A stretch of DNA of 38,468 nt from a virus: IMG/VR virus record IMGVR_UViG_3300014501_000009, positions 1-38,468 of that record. One strand, 5' to 3'. The position numbers and the translations under genes were made by a program. Numbering within the stretch: the first letter of the stretch is position 1; each line of letters starts with the position of its first letter. Below, one piece after another: positions 510 to 20,697 of the stretch. Below the pieces are notes generated by a model. It made no database searches and was not told the origin of the DNA. It saw only the letters and a program-made list of their open reading frames with translations.

Positions 510-1811
510 ATGGCTTCCATTACGATGACCCAGGGCAGTGTTCCTGGTATTTTAAAAGAATTATATGATGATCAGAAGGTCCAATGGTTGACCTATAAGG
601 ACAATCCGTTCCTTGCTATGATCAAAAAAGAAGAGAAGTTCCCTGGTAAGTACTACCCCGTGCCGGTTGTTTATGCATTGTCGCAGGGTGCATCTGGTAC
701 TTTTGCCAATGCTTTCAATAACCAAACCAGCCCGCTGGTTGCTGAGTTCTTGATCACTCGCGTAGCTGACTTCTCGTTGGCTTCGATTGATGGTCAATTG
801 CTTGCTGCTGCTCAAACCGATCCTGGCGCGTTTATCGATGGCTCTGAATTGATGATTGATGCGGCATTCCAAACCGCAGTAAATCGGATTGCATCGGCCA
901 TGTTCCGCAATGGCGCAGGTACGATCGGTCAAATCGCATCGGTAGTATTCATTTCTGGCACTAACTATACTGTAACTCTCACCAATCCCGATGACGCGGT
1001 TCAGTTTGAAGTTGGTCAAACCCTAGTGGCAGTGCAAAATGTTGATGCTTCTGGCGCAGCTCCTGTTGATGTTGGCTCTGTGGTTTCTGTAAACCGCGCT
1101 GCTGGATCGATGGTTGTGTCTTCGGCAACTAACATTTCTGCAGATTGGCCGGCTACTTACTGGCTAGCCGTTCAAGGTGACTTGCCTGGCGCTTCGCAGA
1201 ACTTTGTGCTTCCTGGCGCGATCAGCTCTGGTAGCAATCTCAAGCTTGCTGGCTTGGCTGCTTGGCTTCCCTTGTCTGGCCCTCCCGCAGGCGAAGGTAC
1301 CACCTCGTTGTTCTTCGGCGTAAACAGAAACCTGGACCAACAACGGTTGGCCGGCGTATTTTTTGACGGTTCTGCTCTGTCTCTTGAGGAAGCAATTCAG
1401 CAAGGTACTGGCCGTATCGCAATGAATGGTGGTCGCGCAGATACTGGTATCTGTTCGTACTCTACCTATACTGCCCTAATCGTTAGCCTTGGCTCGAAAG
1501 TACAATACATCGATGAGAAGATCGGTGAAATTGGCTTCCGTGGCGTAGAAGTTAACGGCGCAAATACCGTAATGAACATATTTCCTGACCGAAACTGTCC
1601 GGATGGTGTTATTTACGCCCTTGAGATGGATTCTTGGTGCCTCAGAAGCCAAGGCCCCGCTCCCCATATCCTAAAATATCTTGACGAAATTGAGATACTA
1701 AGGGTCCCTGGAGTAGATAGCGCGGAATTACGCGTTGGGTCATATTTAAATATGTACACTAATAAACCCGGCCACAATGGAGCTATTGCGGTCCAGTTGC
1801 AAGAGTTCTAG
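510..1811 (+). CDS. Major capsid protein (HK97-fold type)
   Basis: The 433-residue product is the main shell protein of the head. The N-terminal part (DNPFLAMIKKEEKFPGKYYPVP, read in two pieces around residue 38, then VADFSLASIDGQLL) resembles podovirus-type capsid proteins, in which an N-arm is followed by residues making intracapsomer contacts. The length is normal for an HK97-fold subunit without a cleaved delta domain. The start has a good GAGGTG site. It lies directly after the scaffold gene and before two decoration-type proteins, and it has its own copy of the late element upstream. Assignment rests on position, length and sequence character. Confidence 0.88.
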   Translation: MASITMTQGSVPGILKELYDDQKVQWLTYKDNPFLAMIKKEEKFPGKYYPVPVVYALSQGASGTFANAFNNQTSPLVAEFLITRVADFSLASIDGQLLAAAQTDPGAFIDGSELMIDAAFQTAVNRIASAMFRNGAGTIGQIASVVFISGTNYTVTLTNPDDAVQFEVGQTLVAVQNVDASGAAPVDVGSVVSVNRAAGSMVVSSATNISADWPATYWLAVQGDLPGASQNFVLPGAISSGSNLKLAGLAAWLPLSGPPAGEGTTSLFFGVNRNLDQQRLAGVFFDGSALSLEEAIQQGTGRIAMNGGRADTGICSYSTYTALIVSLGSKVQYIDEKIGEIGFRGVEVNGANTVMNIFPDRNCPDGVIYALEMDSWCLRSQGPAPHILKYLDEIEILRVPGVDSAELRVGSYLNMYTNKPGHNGAIAVQLQEF

Positions 1812-2603: not shown

Positions 2604-3959
2604 ATGTCTAATAGAAGAGACAATCAGTTCACATACAGCCCGCACAATAAAGCCACGGTGGTGGATTGTTCGTTCGTGGTTGATTCAATGAATGGCAATG
2701 GATTGGGTATTCGCTCGCTGAAACGATCGGGCCGAGTATATGGCGTAAGAATGCAGCAACTAGAGGCGGCTCCTTCGCCTCCAGTTGGTTCACCAAACCT
2801 TGCCACTTCTGCAACTTTCGCATTGTTGGCGGCATCGACCATTACCAATACTGGCTCTAGCGTCATTACTGGCAATCTTGGCTTGTATGCCGGTACTTCC
2901 GTAACGGGATTTCCTCCCGGAACAGTCAGTGGCATCCAATACATCGCGGATGGTGTGGCAGATCAGGCCAAAATTGATGCGACCGCTGCGTATAATGATA
3001 TCTCTGTCCGTCCAGCAACGGCCATCAGCGCTGATCTTGACGGCCAAACGTTGACCCCTGGTGTTTATAAAGAAACCACAGGAACATTCAATCTTGCTAC
3101 GTCTGGAAATGCGACGCTTACTCTTAACGGAGCTGGCCTCTATATATTCCAGGCATCTTCAACGCTTACCACTGGCGCTGGCGGAACTCCCACGATCCTA
3201 CTTACTGGTGGCGCTACTGCTGCTAACGTATATTGGGCGGTTGGTTCTTCTGCGACCATTAACGTATCTGATTCTGGTGTATTTGAGGGAACGATCATTG
3301 CGCATACCAGTATTACTATTGATGGTGGCTCTGTCGTTGGCCGTTTGTTGGCAAATACTGGTGCAGTAACCATTAGTGCGGCAACCAATGTTGCGCTGCC
3401 GGCTGGATCTGTTCCTACTCCAGCTCCTGTGGCTGGAAATCCTGCCGCTGGCTTGATCGTGGTTCAATTGGACGATAACTATAATCGCTATCTTGGCGGA
3501 TATTCTGGTTATGCTTCTCCGCTAAACAGCACTCCAATTAGCTCCGGCCTTATTGTTGGCAATCCTTATGTGATTGTCTCTTTGGGGTCTAGCACATTAG
3601 CTCAGTGGCGAGCGGCTGGATTGTATTCCACTCTTACTCCTGCGGTTGGTGTTTCATTCATTGCTGCGGCTACATCGGTAGCTGGTGGTGGATTGGTTGA
3701 GGGTCCGGCATTGTCCGGATCTGGAATTGATCACATTGAAGTGCTTGGCGATGCTAACCAAATGAATTGGTCTGGCCCATACTTTCCTGGATTAACTCCC
3801 AATGTTCCGGTTGCTGCGGCTTATCCTGGATCTGGAACTACTGGACCGGGAATGAGCTTTATCCTGGCTTGTTATAATGGCGGACAATTGACTGCCCCTA
3901 ATGACAATACGGTGATTGGCCTTAACTTTTATCTAAACAATACTGCACAAGGTGTTTAA
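2604..3959 (+). CDS. Decoration-type virion protein with inserted ice-binding-like (DUF3494) domain
   Basis: The 451-residue paralogue of the previous gene. Residues 1-60 and about 279-451 match the short paralogue. Residues 65-266 are an extra domain with DUF3494 (type 1 ice-binding protein) features in order: NLATSATFALLAAS, ITNTGSSVITGNLG, TGFPPGTVSG, DLDGQTLTPGVYK, YIFQASSTLTT, NVYWAVGSSATI and NTGAVTISAATNVALP. That family folds as a beta-solenoid with a flat binding face and occurs in secreted ice-binding proteins and adhesins. The frame is intact, and the insertion lies in a Pro/Ser-rich loop. I infer a surface domain on the capsid that binds ice, glycans or a host surface. Ice binding itself is untested. 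Confidence 0.85.
   Translation: MSNRRDNQFTYSPHNKATVVDCSFVVDSMNGNGLGIRSLKRSGRVYGVRMQQLEAAPSPPVGSPNLATSATFALLAASTITNTGSSVITGNLGLYAGTSVTGFPPGTVSGIQYIADGVADQAKIDATAAYNDISVRPATAISADLDGQTLTPGVYKETTGTFNLATSGNATLTLNGAGLYIFQASSTLTTGAGGTPTILLTGGATAANVYWAVGSSATINVSDSGVFEGTIIAHTSITIDGGSVVGRLLANTGAVTISAATNVALPAGSVPTPAPVAGNPAAGLIVVQLDDNYNRYLGGYSGYASPLNSTPISSGLIVGNPYVIVSLGSSTLAQWRAAGLYSTLTPAVGVSFIAAATSVAGGGLVEGPALSGSGIDHIEVLGDANQMNWSGPYFPGLTPNVPVAAAYPGSGTTGPGMSFILACYNGGQLTAPNDNTVIGLNFYLNNTAQGV
2796..3401 (+). other. DUF3494 ice-binding-like domain insert within the decoration protein
   Basis: This segment encodes residues about 65-266 of the 451-residue protein and has no counterpart in the 220-residue paralogue just upstream. 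Its edges fall in Pro/Gly/Ser-rich linkers (APSPPVGSP before, AGSVPTPAPVAG after). That fits a modular domain gain rather than independent divergence. Confidence 0.82.
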
Positions 3960-4233: not shown

Positions 4234-5265
4234 ATGGCGATTACTCTAGTTACGCCGCCTGGTTTTACTGCCATGTCGACGCAGAATCAGGTCTATTTAG
4301 CATGGAATGTATCTCCAAATGCTCTGAATTACTCTATTTCGCGTACTGGACCCACTAGCTTAATTGATCCAACGGTGGTTACTATTACTTTGGGGCCGAC
4401 ATCCAGTCTTTTCTTTTCTGATACCACCGCTCCACTAGATTTAGTTTATAGCTACACCATCACAGCCCAATCGGGCATCGATACCAGCCCGCCAACCAAC
4501 GCGATGTCGGCCCTTGCTTTAAAGCCCGGACAAACCACCGTTGGAAACTTGATGCTCGAGGCGCAACAACGCGCCGACAAGGTAAATAGCCCTTTCTATA
4601 CCACTCAGGAATGGGTGAATATGATCAGCCAATCGTATAAAGAACTTTACGATGTTTTGATTCAGAAGTTTGGAAATGACTATTTCATCGCACCACCCGT
4701 CAGTTTTTTGACGACTGGGCAACTTGATATTACCTATGGGGCGCAAGTGTTCCCATTACCGGCAGACTTCTATAAGCTAATGCGCGTTGAGGTAGCATTA
4801 AATCCCGGTGATTCAAATTCATGGGTTACGCTCCGAAAATTCGAGGCGGTTCAAGCCAATCTTTATAACTATCCAAATGTTTACACTTTTTACGGAATTA
4901 CCAATCTTCGTTATCGATTATGGGGCAGTCAATTACAGTTAGTTCCTTTGTCTGCCTCTGGCCAGACGATTAGAATCTGGTATTCTCCGCGTCCCAGCCA
5001 GTTAATCAATACCTTTGATCTGGTGGATGGTGTTTCTGGTTGGGAAGAATACATCATTTGCGATACCTGCGAAAAGGCGATGATCAAGGAAGAGTCTTAC
5101 GAGATGGCGAGTGCCTTTGGCACACAAAAGGGAATGCTATTACAGCGCATTATTGAAGCCGCAGAGAATCGTGATGTTGGGTCTCCTGAAACCGTATCCG
5201 ATAGTCGCTTGAGAAACTTTGCGTGGGGCGATTCTGGAGAATTTAGCGGCGGCGGTATGTGGTGA
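4234..5265 (+). CDS. Head-to-tail adaptor-like protein with N-terminal FN3-like domain
   Basis: The 343-residue product has two parts. Residues 1 to about 95 look like a fibronectin type III domain (PPGFTAMSTQNQVYLAWN, ALNYSISRTG, YSYTITAQSG). Residues from about 100 onward resemble podovirus adaptor (gp4/gp11-like) proteins: a helical start (VGNLMLEAQQRAD, then QEWVNMISQSYKELYDVLI), a beta region around FPLPADFYKLMRVEV, and a helical C-terminus with ICDTCEKAMIKEE. It lies between the capsid and nozzle genes, where the ring under the portal is normally encoded. The FN3 fusion is unusual for this small component and could project from the neck. The adaptor call rests on position and pattern. 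Confidence 0.65.
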   Translation: MAITLVTPPGFTAMSTQNQVYLAWNVSPNALNYSISRTGPTSLIDPTVVTITLGPTSSLFFSDTTAPLDLVYSYTITAQSGIDTSPPTNAMSALALKPGQTTVGNLMLEAQQRADKVNSPFYTTQEWVNMISQSYKELYDVLIQKFGNDYFIAPPVSFLTTGQLDITYGAQVFPLPADFYKLMRVEVALNPGDSNSWVTLRKFEAVQANLYNYPNVYTFYGITNLRYRLWGSQLQLVPLSASGQTIRIWYSPRPSQLINTFDLVDGVSGWEEYIICDTCEKAMIKEESYEMASAFGTQKGMLLQRIIEAAENRDVGSPETVSDSRLRNFAWGDSGEFSGGGMW

Positions 5266-16956: not shown

Positions 16957-18524
16957 ATAAGATTTTACTTCTACTTTCGCTTCTCCCAATTATCGCTGGC
17001 GCCAATCCCAGGACAATAACCGCTGATATTTTGGAATCTAGCGATCTTACGCAATCTTATACTATTAATTATGCAACTTTGAATAATATCCAGACTACGC
17101 TCACATTCACTGCGCCACTGGTAAATACTCTAGGCGTACTAACTTGTAATGTGGCTTCCGGTTCTATGGCAGGATGTTTGGCTTCTGCTGACTTTGCCAC
17201 ATTCGCGGCAACTTCGGCTGCGGCCATTACCAGTCTAACTGGCGACGTAGTTGCTTCTGGCCCTGGAGCCGTAAATGCACTTATCCCTACAATGTCATAT
17301 CAACGTTGGGTGAATTTCGTAACTGGTAATGATGGTACAGGTACCGGATCGCAACTACGCCCATGGAAAACCATCCAAAAGGCTTGTACTGCCGTTACTG
17401 GATTGGCCACGATCAATACCCCCGTCACCATTAATCTTGATGGCGGAAATAATGATTTTGAAGCTGGCCCGATCTCTTGCCCGCCAAATATCGCATTAAA
17501 TTCTGGTTATTCAATTCAAATTCCTGTGGCGTTTGTTATTTCTGGCGGTTCAACAAACGATAATTTTTGGGCGTCAAATATAGAGTTTATTGGAGCATTT
17601 ACGTGGTCAAGAAACGATGCCACGGACATGAGCGCCACGTTTTCTCAGGTGGCATTTGGTGGAGCTACCACACTCAAGCAGGCTGGTTCGGGTGGCTTGG
17701 CTTTAGAAGTTTACAATAGTTCATTTGACGCCGCCACAGAAATACAGGCACCTACATTTGGTAGCATTTTCTACAGCACAGAATTTAATGCTGCCACCAC
17801 TTTTGATGACGTAACATCCGCCGCTTATTATGAATTTTTAGGTGGATACATGGGCGCCCCAATCAGCATTGCTGGTGGCCCATTCATATATTTCAGTGGC
17901 ATTCAGGCCGATGTTCCATTTGGCTATACTCTGACCATGGTTACTACGGGAAATGGTTCTCCTACATTACAAACGGATTCGGGTAGCGTACCTCCGACAA
18001 TCACGGGAACGCCAACCCTGATACTAACTTCCTATGCACAGCACGAAAGCTATACACCTGCTGTACCTGGAAATTGGTCTCCCGCTCCTGGCCAAGTTGC
18101 TGCAGCATTAGACCAATTGGCAGCGCGTGGTAGCGGATCTGGTTCTGTGACATCTGTATCGGTAGTTGGCGCTAATGGCTTTGCTGGTACTGTTGCCACC
18201 TCGACCACTACCCCCGCCATCACATTGAGTACGACTGTTACCGGCCTCCTTAAGGGAAATGGAACGTCAATCTCAGCAGCCGTAGCTGGTACAGATTATG
18301 TAGCGCCATTCACTTACACCCAGGAAGTACCTAGCGGGAGCATAAATAATTCTAATGTCACATTTACTTTGGCGCATACGCCGCAATCAAATGCTGGCGT
18401 AGTTCTTTTTGGAGACAACGGGCCGTTGGTGCAAGGAACTGACTATATTATTGCTTCTGCTACCATTACGATGGCGGTGGCACCTAACTTTGGACAAACA
18501 CTTTATGCGACGTATCAGTATTAA
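16953..18524 (+). CDS. Fibre/spike-like beta-helix protein with N-terminal signal peptide
   Basis: A 523-residue product. The start at 16953 overlaps the TGA of the previous gene; upstream extension would run through that gene. The first 17 residues (MNKILLLLSLLPIIAGA) form a textbook Sec signal: basic start, hydrophobic core and an A-G-A cleavage site. From about residue 115 there is a pectate-lyase-like beta-helix opening (FVTGNDGTGTGSQLRPWKTI), as in tailspikes. Later come a fibre repeat (GSVTSVSVVGANGFAG, LLKGNGTSISAAVAGTDYV) and a C-terminal module shared with the previous protein (LFGDNGPLVQGTDY). Export signals are not normal on tail fibres, so this may act in the periplasm or on the cell surface. 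Confidence 0.72.
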   Translation: MNKILLLLSLLPIIAGANPRTITADILESSDLTQSYTINYATLNNIQTTLTFTAPLVNTLGVLTCNVASGSMAGCLASADFATFAATSAAAITSLTGDVVASGPGAVNALIPTMSYQRWVNFVTGNDGTGTGSQLRPWKTIQKACTAVTGLATINTPVTINLDGGNNDFEAGPISCPPNIALNSGYSIQIPVAFVISGGSTNDNFWASNIEFIGAFTWSRNDATDMSATFSQVAFGGATTLKQAGSGGLALEVYNSSFDAATEIQAPTFGSIFYSTEFNAATTFDDVTSAAYYEFLGGYMGAPISIAGGPFIYFSGIQADVPFGYTLTMVTTGNGSPTLQTDSGSVPPTITGTPTLILTSYAQHESYTPAVPGNWSPAPGQVAAALDQLAARGSGSGSVTSVSVVGANGFAGTVATSTTTPAITLSTTVTGLLKGNGTSISAAVAGTDYVAPFTYTQEVPSGSINNSNVTFTLAHTPQSNAGVVLFGDNGPLVQGTDYIIASATITMAVAPNFGQTLYATYQY

Positions 18525-18534
18525 GGGGAGCGAT

Positions 18535-20697
18535 ATGAAAAACAAAATTATTCTATTCTTGGGACTACTGGCATCTACAGCTCTTGCCGCTCCCAAGATT
18601 CAGAACGTGGATGTACTCTCCCCGGCGGCTATCGTTACCGCTGGTGGAACGCAATCGCAAGCGGTCAACACCTCCAAACTATGGAACGATGTTGACTCGG
18701 AACTTGTAGACACTTCTATTGCTCGCTGGGACGCCAAGGGCACTGGATCTGTAACATCCGTATCTTTTTCTGATGGATCTTCTACCCCCATTTTTTCAAT
18801 TGGCGGTGTTCCGGTAACTACGTCCGGGACAATAACCGAGACGCTTTCTACACAATCAGCCAATACTGTATTTTCGGGGCCGACCTCTGGCGGCTCTGCA
18901 CAACCGACGTTTCGTGCTTTGGTTTCTGCCGACATTCCTTCGCTATCCGCCTTATATCTGGCGCTAACTGGCGGAACAATGTCCGGCATTATCAATACTG
19001 GCGGTAATACGATTACTGATACGTTCGTGCCCGTTACCGGAAGCGACGTAGCAAACAAGGCCTATGTAGACTCGCAACTTGCGCAGCTAAATCCCGCCGC
19101 CGCTGTTTACGCGGCCACAACCGCCAACCTAGTTGGAACTTATACGAATGCCGTGAGCGGAGTCTGTATTGGTGACTTATTCACTATTACAGCCACGGGT
19201 GCATTTACGGTTGATGGTGTTACGCCCCCGGCTGGATCTAGAATTCTATTCAAAAACCAGACAAGTTCATTCCAGGATGGTGTTTGGGTTTTAACCGTTC
19301 CCGGATCTGTTGGCGTTAGTGCAATATTCACTCGCGCCACCGACTCCGATTCTTCTGCGGACTTGAATGCTGGACAAATTGTTCCTATCGCAAACGGGAC
19401 AGTAAATGCTGGATCTTCTTATTTTCAAACTGCTGTTATTTCTACCTGTAGTAGTAATGCCCAAACATGGACAAAGTTTTCTAACGCGTCTTCGGCTTAC
19501 TTATTGGCGGCCAATAATCTATCTGATGTCGCTAACGTTGCCACTAGTCAAAGCAATCTTGGATTGGCAAATGTGCTCACTGGGCTGACTGGAGATGGAA
19601 CCGCAACTGCTTCCGGTGTGGCGTCTGCCGCTTTTACTTTGGCAACGGTGAATGCAAATGTTGGTAGCTTCACTAATGCCAATATTACCGTTAACGCAAA
19701 GGGACTAATCACTGCCGCTTCTAATGGAAGTGGCGGCGGCGGCTCAACGGTATACAATGCCCAATTCCAATGCGGATTTGGAACCGCGGATTCTAACACC
19801 ACACTTCTTTTGAACTTCGATGGCAATCCAACAACTGGATTTTCTAGTAGTACCGTCTATGACTATGGTATCTCCCATTTGACTGGCTGGAGTTTAAATC
19901 TTGGTGCAGTGATGGATGCTACGCATGTTAAGTTTGGCGCTGGATCATTGGACTTATCCGCTGGATCAAGCGGATCAAACTTATCTAGAGCCGGTAATGC
20001 GGCTTTTGCTTTAGGGTCTGGAAACTTTGAGGTCGATGCCCAGGTATATCCTGTTAATTTTTCTGCTAATTATGATGTGATGGGGGTTCAAAATAGCGGC
20101 GTGGGTGGTTGGGATCTTTATATCAACACCAGTGGACATCCCGTTTGGTACAATTCTTCCGCTGGAAATATTCTTGTGGGAACGGGTACTCTTACTCTCA
20201 ATGCATACAATTATGTTGAATTGGATAGAAGTGGCAGCACCGTCTATATGTTTGTCAATGGGACTTTGGGCGGTACCGCCACCGATTCTGCTAACTATAA
20301 CGATAGCACTGACACATTTCACGTAGGCGCAAACTCTACCGCTGCCGGGAATGGTAACGGGATTATCGTTGACGAGGTTCGCATTTCTAACGTCGCCAGA
20401 AATACAGTTAGTTTTACGGCCCCCACGGCGGCGTGGCCGATTACCCAAACTATCGACTCTGGTGGTAATCCTAGTTCTTGGATGACCCAAGTAAATGGCG
20501 GCCTTGGCCCTTGCACATGTCAAATTGTTCCCGCCGCACCATTTGCTGCTCTGCCGGCATGTGCCTTCAGCCCAATCACCACCAGCGTAAACAGCGGGGT
20601 GAATCCAACCACAACGCTAACGACTTCATTGATCACGCTTTCCACTTACATCAATGGCGTGTGTGCAAGTAACGATATCCAAGGAATGTGTCACTAA
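18535..20697 (+). CDS. Large fibre-like adhesin with signal peptide and LamG-like domain
   Basis: A 720-residue product, preceded by GGGGAG 5 nt before the ATG. Residues 1-18 (MKNKIILFLGLLASTALA, then AP) are a canonical type I signal peptide. Next come fibre motifs: GTGSVTSVSFSDGSS, then ALTGGTMSGIINTGGNTI and DVANKAYVDSQL, typical of trimeric phage fibre shafts. Residues about 413-635 resemble a laminin-G/concanavalin-like lectin domain (TTLLLNFDGNPTTG, GAGSLDLSAGSSGS, ELDRSGSTVYMFVNGTLGG, VDEVRISNVAR). Cysteines cluster near the C-terminus, fitting an exported, disulfide-bonded end. It is probably a glycan-binding receptor protein or a secreted adhesin. Confidence 0.75.
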   Translation: MKNKIILFLGLLASTALAAPKIQNVDVLSPAAIVTAGGTQSQAVNTSKLWNDVDSELVDTSIARWDAKGTGSVTSVSFSDGSSTPIFSIGGVPVTTSGTITETLSTQSANTVFSGPTSGGSAQPTFRALVSADIPSLSALYLALTGGTMSGIINTGGNTITDTFVPVTGSDVANKAYVDSQLAQLNPAAAVYAATTANLVGTYTNAVSGVCIGDLFTITATGAFTVDGVTPPAGSRILFKNQTSSFQDGVWVLTVPGSVGVSAIFTRATDSDSSADLNAGQIVPIANGTVNAGSSYFQTAVISTCSSNAQTWTKFSNASSAYLLAANNLSDVANVATSQSNLGLANVLTGLTGDGTATASGVASAAFTLATVNANVGSFTNANITVNAKGLITAASNGSGGGGSTVYNAQFQCGFGTADSNTTLLLNFDGNPTTGFSSSTVYDYGISHLTGWSLNLGAVMDATHVKFGAGSLDLSAGSSGSNLSRAGNAAFALGSGNFEVDAQVYPVNFSANYDVMGVQNSGVGGWDLYINTSGHPVWYNSSAGNILVGTGTLTLNAYNYVELDRSGSTVYMFVNGTLGGTATDSANYNDSTDTFHVGANSTAAGNGNGIIVDEVRISNVARNTVSFTAPTAAWPITQTIDSGGNPSSWMTQVNGGLGPCTCQIVPAAPFAALPACAFSPITTSVNSGVNPTTTLTTSLITLSTYINGVCASNDIQGMCH

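Follow-up and report, generated by a model that had tools for sequence, protein, structure and literature searches.

Background

What is a domain of the ice-binding DUF3494 family doing inside a phage protein that is encoded next to the major capsid protein (MCP)? The question is raised by one linear metagenomic virus record of IMG/VR (IMGVR_UViG_3300014501_000009), analysed here over its full length of 38,468 nucleotides and referred to below as the window. Bacteria and fungi hold on to ice with this domain. The B face of the DUF3494 solenoid is the ice-binding face in solved members of the family, for one of which, AnpIBP, the site has been published coil by coil (PMC7277481), and the ice sites of DUF3494 proteins have no consensus motif (PMC7966756). 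EfcIBP, the solved protein nearest to the domain described here, is ice-active, with a thermal hysteresis of 0.53 °C at 50 µM (PMC10992025).

The same Pfam family, PF11999, has been reported from viral contigs of Arctic viromes, in three vOTUs and with a cyanophage homologue, where it was read as a host cryoprotection function (PMC11515562). A survey of tail-sheath evolution reports Ig-like extra domains and leaves ice-binding ones unmentioned (PMC9230969). In the open-licence literature we found no description of DUF3494 as a virion module, although absence there is no proof of novelty. In this work we have analyzed the locus together with its viral and cellular relatives, and the domain looks like a mobile virion-display module, deployed like the Ig-like domains of phages but with the fold of an ice-binding protein.

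Results

The MCP gene of the window (510-1811, 433 amino acids) matches the major head protein family phrog_9953 (E 6e-5) and, weakly and below the cut-off, PF17236 SU10_MCP of Pfam (E 0.008). It is followed by two tandem genes of a putative decoration family: a short paralogue of 220 amino acids without insert (1935-2597) and a long paralogue of 451 amino acids (2604-3959), which starts closely behind the stop codon of its neighbour. Since a head-tail adaptor is encoded further downstream (4234-5265; PF24175 SU10_adaptor, E 1.3e-6, above the cut-off), the locus is placed in a virion module. These four genes, as well as the segments of the long paralogue given below, are on the + strand. Gene order suggests a capsid-surface location of the long paralogue. 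The short paralogue has a strong Shine-Dalgarno sequence (AAAGGAGAT) and the long one a weaker site, so the domain-bearing subunit would probably be the minority on the particle. Elsewhere in the window, an open reading frame of 762 amino acids (18409-20697) matches PHROGs of virion structural, baseplate and head-decoration type and probably encodes a tail or receptor-binding protein assembled from shared virion domains.

The AlphaFold model of the short paralogue (42 aligned rows, pLDDT 84.6) is beta-rich. Nothing significant was found for it among the solved structures of the PDB by Foldseek (best E 0.07), no match was found among the PHROGs, and BFVD gave one weak match, to a minor tail protein (E 6e-4, TM 0.28). 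"Decoration" is therefore used here as a working name.

The two paralogues align end to end save for about 200 residues present in the long one, and outside this insert they are about 67-68% identical. The long protein is composed of an N-terminal family block that ends in a strand (residues 1-51, 2604-2756; alignments and profile match 1-51), a Pro-rich linker QLEAAPSPPVGSPN (2757-2798) of a type that also precedes the domain in unrelated virion proteins, the DUF3494 domain (residues 66-264, 2799-3395), a second linker LPAGSVPTPAPVA (3396-3434) and a C-terminal family block (residues 278-451, 3435-3956; family profile and alignments). In the core the insert lies between the strands 45-52 and 280-289. 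The first-pass annotation had described a complete DUF3494-type solenoid with limits at 2796-3401, set in an intact frame between the conserved blocks of one of two tandem paralogues and edged by flexible linkers, and in each of these respects it was borne out: the frame 2604-3959 is open throughout, both blocks match the gene 1935-2597, a profile built from phage copies agrees with the limits within a few bases, and the model has low pLDDT at residues 53-58 and 270-279. By a crude heuristic the long paralogue has no signal-like N-terminus, and its domain is embedded, unlike those of secreted microbial ice-binding proteins. Base composition does not support a recent foreign import of the insert (GC 0.50, flanks 0.48-0.49). 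In the long paralogue the GC3 of the C-terminal block (3402-3956) is 0.335, lower than that of the short paralogue (0.441) and of the MCP gene (0.457), and a nearly identical stretch of DNA (gcggttggtgtttcattcattgctgcggctac) occurs in both paralogues (2326-2369 and 3642-3685), which may reflect gene conversion.

Family membership of the insert is clear: Pfam PF11999 (Ice_binding) matches residues 75-261 of the long paralogue over positions 2-206 of the 208 in the profile (E 5.3e-41; 141 bits against a curated cut-off of 28.7), and phmmer against the PDB retrieves 6EIO, the structure of EfcIBP (E 6e-40). The structure prediction that had been proposed as a check also returned the solenoid. In the AlphaFold model (nine aligned rows) the insert, with pLDDT mostly 80-96, forms short strands in solenoid order and makes up a discontinuous triangular beta-solenoid. 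Its long alpha helix (residues 117-134 by DSSP on the model, 2952-3005) corresponds to the helix found packed against the A face of DUF3494 proteins. Foldseek superimposes the insert on 6EIO with a TM-score of 0.83 by target length, an rmsd of 1.8 Å and 42% identity, and every one of the 31 matches at E<=0.001 is a DUF3494 ice-binding protein.

The residues of the putative binding face were transferred from the AnpIBP site through the phmmer alignment. They fall, supported by this mapping and by conservation, in S-T-I-T-N-T of coil 1 (residues 78-83, 2835-2852), the loop T-S-V-T (98-101, 2895-2906), S-T-L-T-T-G of coil 3 (186-191, 3159-3176), S-S-A-T-I-N of coil 4 (215-220, 3246-3263), T-S-I-T-I-D of coil 5 (235-240, 3306-3323) and G-A-V-T-I-S of coil 6 (253-258, 3360-3377); the strand of coil 2, G-T-F-N-L-A (160-165, 3081-3098), was assigned from its in/out pattern and is the least certain. 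Threonine occupies the fourth position in five of the six coils of the window protein and, in coils 1, 6, 5, 4 and 3, in 76-99% of about 100 copies from viral contigs. When compared with other non-hydrophobic, non-glycine columns, the outward columns of the face have lower entropy (0.79 vs 1.95; Mann-Whitney p 1e-6), less charge (0.6% vs 7.8%) and more Ser/Thr (77% vs 32%). The values are much alike in cellular relatives, and the face is conserved in those from soil-dwelling bacteria such as Streptomyces and equally intact in those from soil Actinobacteria; its conservation is thus a property of the subfamily and no proof of ice as the ligand. The face is maintained, and the identity of what it binds does not follow from this.

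A profile search of IMG/VR for the carrier family yielded 92 relatives, about 72 of them distinct open reading frames with both conserved blocks. The domain is present in 12 of these, the window protein included, always at one junction, and the remaining 60 have a linker of 7-21 amino acids there; no other domain occupies this junction in any of the about 72. A homologue of MCP is encoded upstream of 64 of the 89 family genes with sufficient upstream sequence (a redundant count), mostly within 250 bp, so that the claimed virion-gene context is conserved across relatives. At the loci L037/L038, L211 and L220, too, a short gene precedes one that bears DUF3494. On the core tree the presence of the domain needs nine changes, at least four of them forced by well-supported branches; it has therefore been gained or lost repeatedly, and a single acquisition inherited once was rejected for this family. 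In a search for the host, run without a positive control, the family profile gave no match in 399 genomes from the class to which Granulicella belongs. A look through open-licence papers for the habitats of the IMG records gave no result.

The first-pass annotation had presented the domain as spliced into one phage protein. The insertion is real, but "one phage" is an understatement, as the domain recurs in the family and is also present in further virion proteins, those of the sheath and the baseplate among them. Viral contigs yielded 15 DUF3494 loci with the window's own sequence as the query and 79 with an alignment of phage copies, both of which are lower bounds as retrieval was limited by search patterns. 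The full chimeric protein as a query found nothing in viral contigs, because the patterns had been taken from divergent parts of that protein; relatives were retrieved with the domain by itself and with the family alignments. The viral DUF3494-bearing reading frames form 29 clusters by their flanks. The carriers include tail sheaths (phrog_279, E 1.6e-28; phrog_2839, E 2e-27; PF17482), a baseplate wedge protein (phrog_6, E 1.7e-24) and large tail-type proteins for which the databases gave no match. Two or more loci, kilobases apart, occur on each of at least eight contigs. The record 3300028800_000171, for instance, has the domain in a sheath and in a large tail-type protein (L082, L033), and several domains per phage, within one protein and across virion proteins, are found at L034 (2745-9611), L036, L041, L046, L072, L073 and L098 and in the record 3300028654_000012.

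In one group of tail sheaths (L016, L017, L019, L020, L066, L082, L093 and L094) the domain is circularly permuted, the helix and coils 2-6 being followed by coil 1; in the sheaths of another family (L057/L058) it is unpermuted. Given that the spatial order of the coils in solved relatives is 1-6-5-4-3-2, the permuted copy should form a solenoid that is continuous in chain order, and these sheaths offer a natural experiment on solenoid folding.

By the same kind of crude heuristic, about 50 residues or more flank the domain on both sides in 61 of the 79 complete viral carriers, and a signal-peptide-like N-terminus is seen in 3 of the 79, vs 40 of 82 cellular proteins. One viral locus (L062, 4911-5855) encodes a DUF3494 protein with a signal peptide that groups with cellular copies; it may be genuinely secreted, of AMG type or misclassified. 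In two Nocardia proteins (L168, L169) the domain is C-terminal, after a TIG-like region, and no obvious signal peptide is present.

Copies from viral contigs are up to 74% identical to the window domain, and the best cellular match, in a search of one genome per species for 84,980 bacterial and archaeal species, reaches 58%; the closest cellular relatives come from many soil lineages. In a tree of 174 domains (quick method, no bootstrap) viral and cellular copies stand largely apart, with 5 changes against a shuffled mean of 58, a separation toward which the tree is biased because similarity to phage queries determined both samples. The carrier contexts (decoration, sheath, baseplate and others) are interspersed in it, the decoration label alone changing 9 times, at least 5 of them forced. 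A linker of the type P-P-x-G-S-P-N/V precedes the domain in 17 of 85 viral copies, with carriers that are unrelated, and is absent from all 81 cellular copies. The dN/dS ratio is about 0.06-0.12 for pairs with measurable dS, indicating purifying selection. Taken together, the identities, the tree, the shared linker and dN/dS make the domain look like an old phage-borne module that has moved with its linker between virion genes. No match was obtained by tblastn of four DUF3494 queries, the short paralogue and MCP against 50,697 phage genomes, in which a sheath query used as the positive control hit 199 records; the published cyanophage homologue, also not recovered, must be too divergent for such a search.

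Discussion

We propose that the second gene after MCP encodes a decoration-type capsid subunit which would display the solenoid from an exposed loop, beside the unmodified short subunit. The flat face lined with Thr, Ser and Ala would be turned outside as the working surface and would bind a hydrated lattice of regular spacing, with ice as the most likely one; ice binding might keep virions at ice or in liquid veins, in which hosts are concentrated, and/or reduce the damage that freezing and thawing do to them. Like Ig-like domains, the domain would be shifted by phages, together with its linker, among virion proteins, those of the decoration type, the tail sheath and the baseplate included. 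For the proposal as a whole, the estimated probability is roughly 0.47. Its parts are not equally firm. Computation establishes the domain and its fold, the junction and its recurrence, the phage-typical lineage, the purifying selection and the conserved B face, while the presence of the protein in virions, the outward orientation of the domain and its ligand are inferred. That the domain is displayed on virions is highly probable, and ice, taken as the most likely single ligand since the closest solved relatives have been shown to bind it, stays somewhat short of an even chance.

The main rival is an adhesion module for another regular surface, such as a host exopolysaccharide, a cell-wall glycan, a mineral or a plant polymer, and we regard a polysaccharide or mineral lattice as a real, if lesser, prospect. 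DUF3494 proteins are found worldwide, the tropics and hot springs included, and other substrates with repeating units have been suggested for them (PMC7783341); the many soil lineages among the closest cellular relatives fit such a role as well, and so does the placement in sheath, baseplate and decoration proteins, which resembles that of phage Ig-like domains, thought to be weak binders of surface carbohydrates (PMC9230969). Ice as the ligand is favoured over these surfaces by the ice activity of the closest solved homologue and by the face itself, which would seem to be without the aromatic and charged residues that are usual in sites for carbohydrates. A solenoid that binds nothing and serves as passive cement or spacer, stabilising the particle or thickening its surface, would agree with the several copies per protein in some phages and with the virion stabilisation that has been raised for extra sheath domains (PMC9230969), but is unlikely, as it would not lead one to expect such strong conservation of exposed Thr/Ser columns across differing carriers, nor the absence of the domain from 60 of the 72 family members.

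An auxiliary product that protects the host from cold in or around the cell would follow the reading of the three vOTUs with cryoprotection AMGs (PMC11515562), and the viral locus with a signal peptide that groups with cellular copies would suit it, yet it is very improbable for the window protein, which lacks a signal-like N-terminus, and for a domain that lies within sheath and baseplate proteins and within proteins encoded beside MCP. That the source is a single linear metagenomic record might raise the suspicion of an assembly chimera or annotation artefact; the frame is intact and the base composition matched, and eleven other family members on other contigs with the domain at the same junction exclude a chimera, which leaves this explanation with a negligible probability.

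The domain shares with DUF3494/IBP-1 proteins (nearest EfcIBP, 6EIO, then AnpIBP, 7BWX/7BWY) the coils, the long helix and the Thr/Ser/Ala pattern of the B face, but it is neither secreted nor stand-alone, being set into a loop of a phage protein encoded beside MCP; its lineage is phage-typical and its activity putative. The Ig-like domains of virions (T4 Hoc, the decoration proteins of N4 and Sf14, type 2/3 tail sheaths) are likewise modular extras, exchanged between unrelated phages and missing from many relatives. The likeness is in deployment only, as the phage DUF3494 domain is a beta-solenoid and not an Ig beta-sandwich, has a putative lattice-binding face and occurs in circularly permuted form in sheaths. 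An ice-binding module on a larger surface protein is also known from SfIBP_1 and MpAFP; these are bacterial and not virion proteins, and the fold of MpAFP is unrelated. Unlike the AMGs of the Arctic viromes, read as helping the host (PMC11515562), the domain described here belongs to virion-type proteins.

The ligands of phage Ig-like domains are mostly unclear, whereas ice, the best-studied ligand of DUF3494, has sensitive assays, so that what a mobile virion domain does can be put to a direct test. Binding of ice, if it occurs, would bear on the survival and dispersal of viruses in permafrost, snow and freezing soils and would correct the reading of viral PF11999 genes as host-helping AMGs. 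We suggest, tentatively and at less than even odds, that in soils that are cold or freeze seasonally there are phages whose capsids, tail sheaths and baseplates bear a mobile module for binding ice, which makes their virions adhere to it; if true, it would be a previously unrecognised attachment of viruses to a non-living solid.

A second extra domain of about 110-190 amino acids ("GTYFRLYDAYGNTFNIWFSV..APQ...NDSAATI") occurs in another loop of the decoration family (L015, 6061-7797; L075, 363-2141; L238-L255; also L009, L018 and L039). Segments like it are found in baseplate-type proteins, and it may be another mobile virion module.
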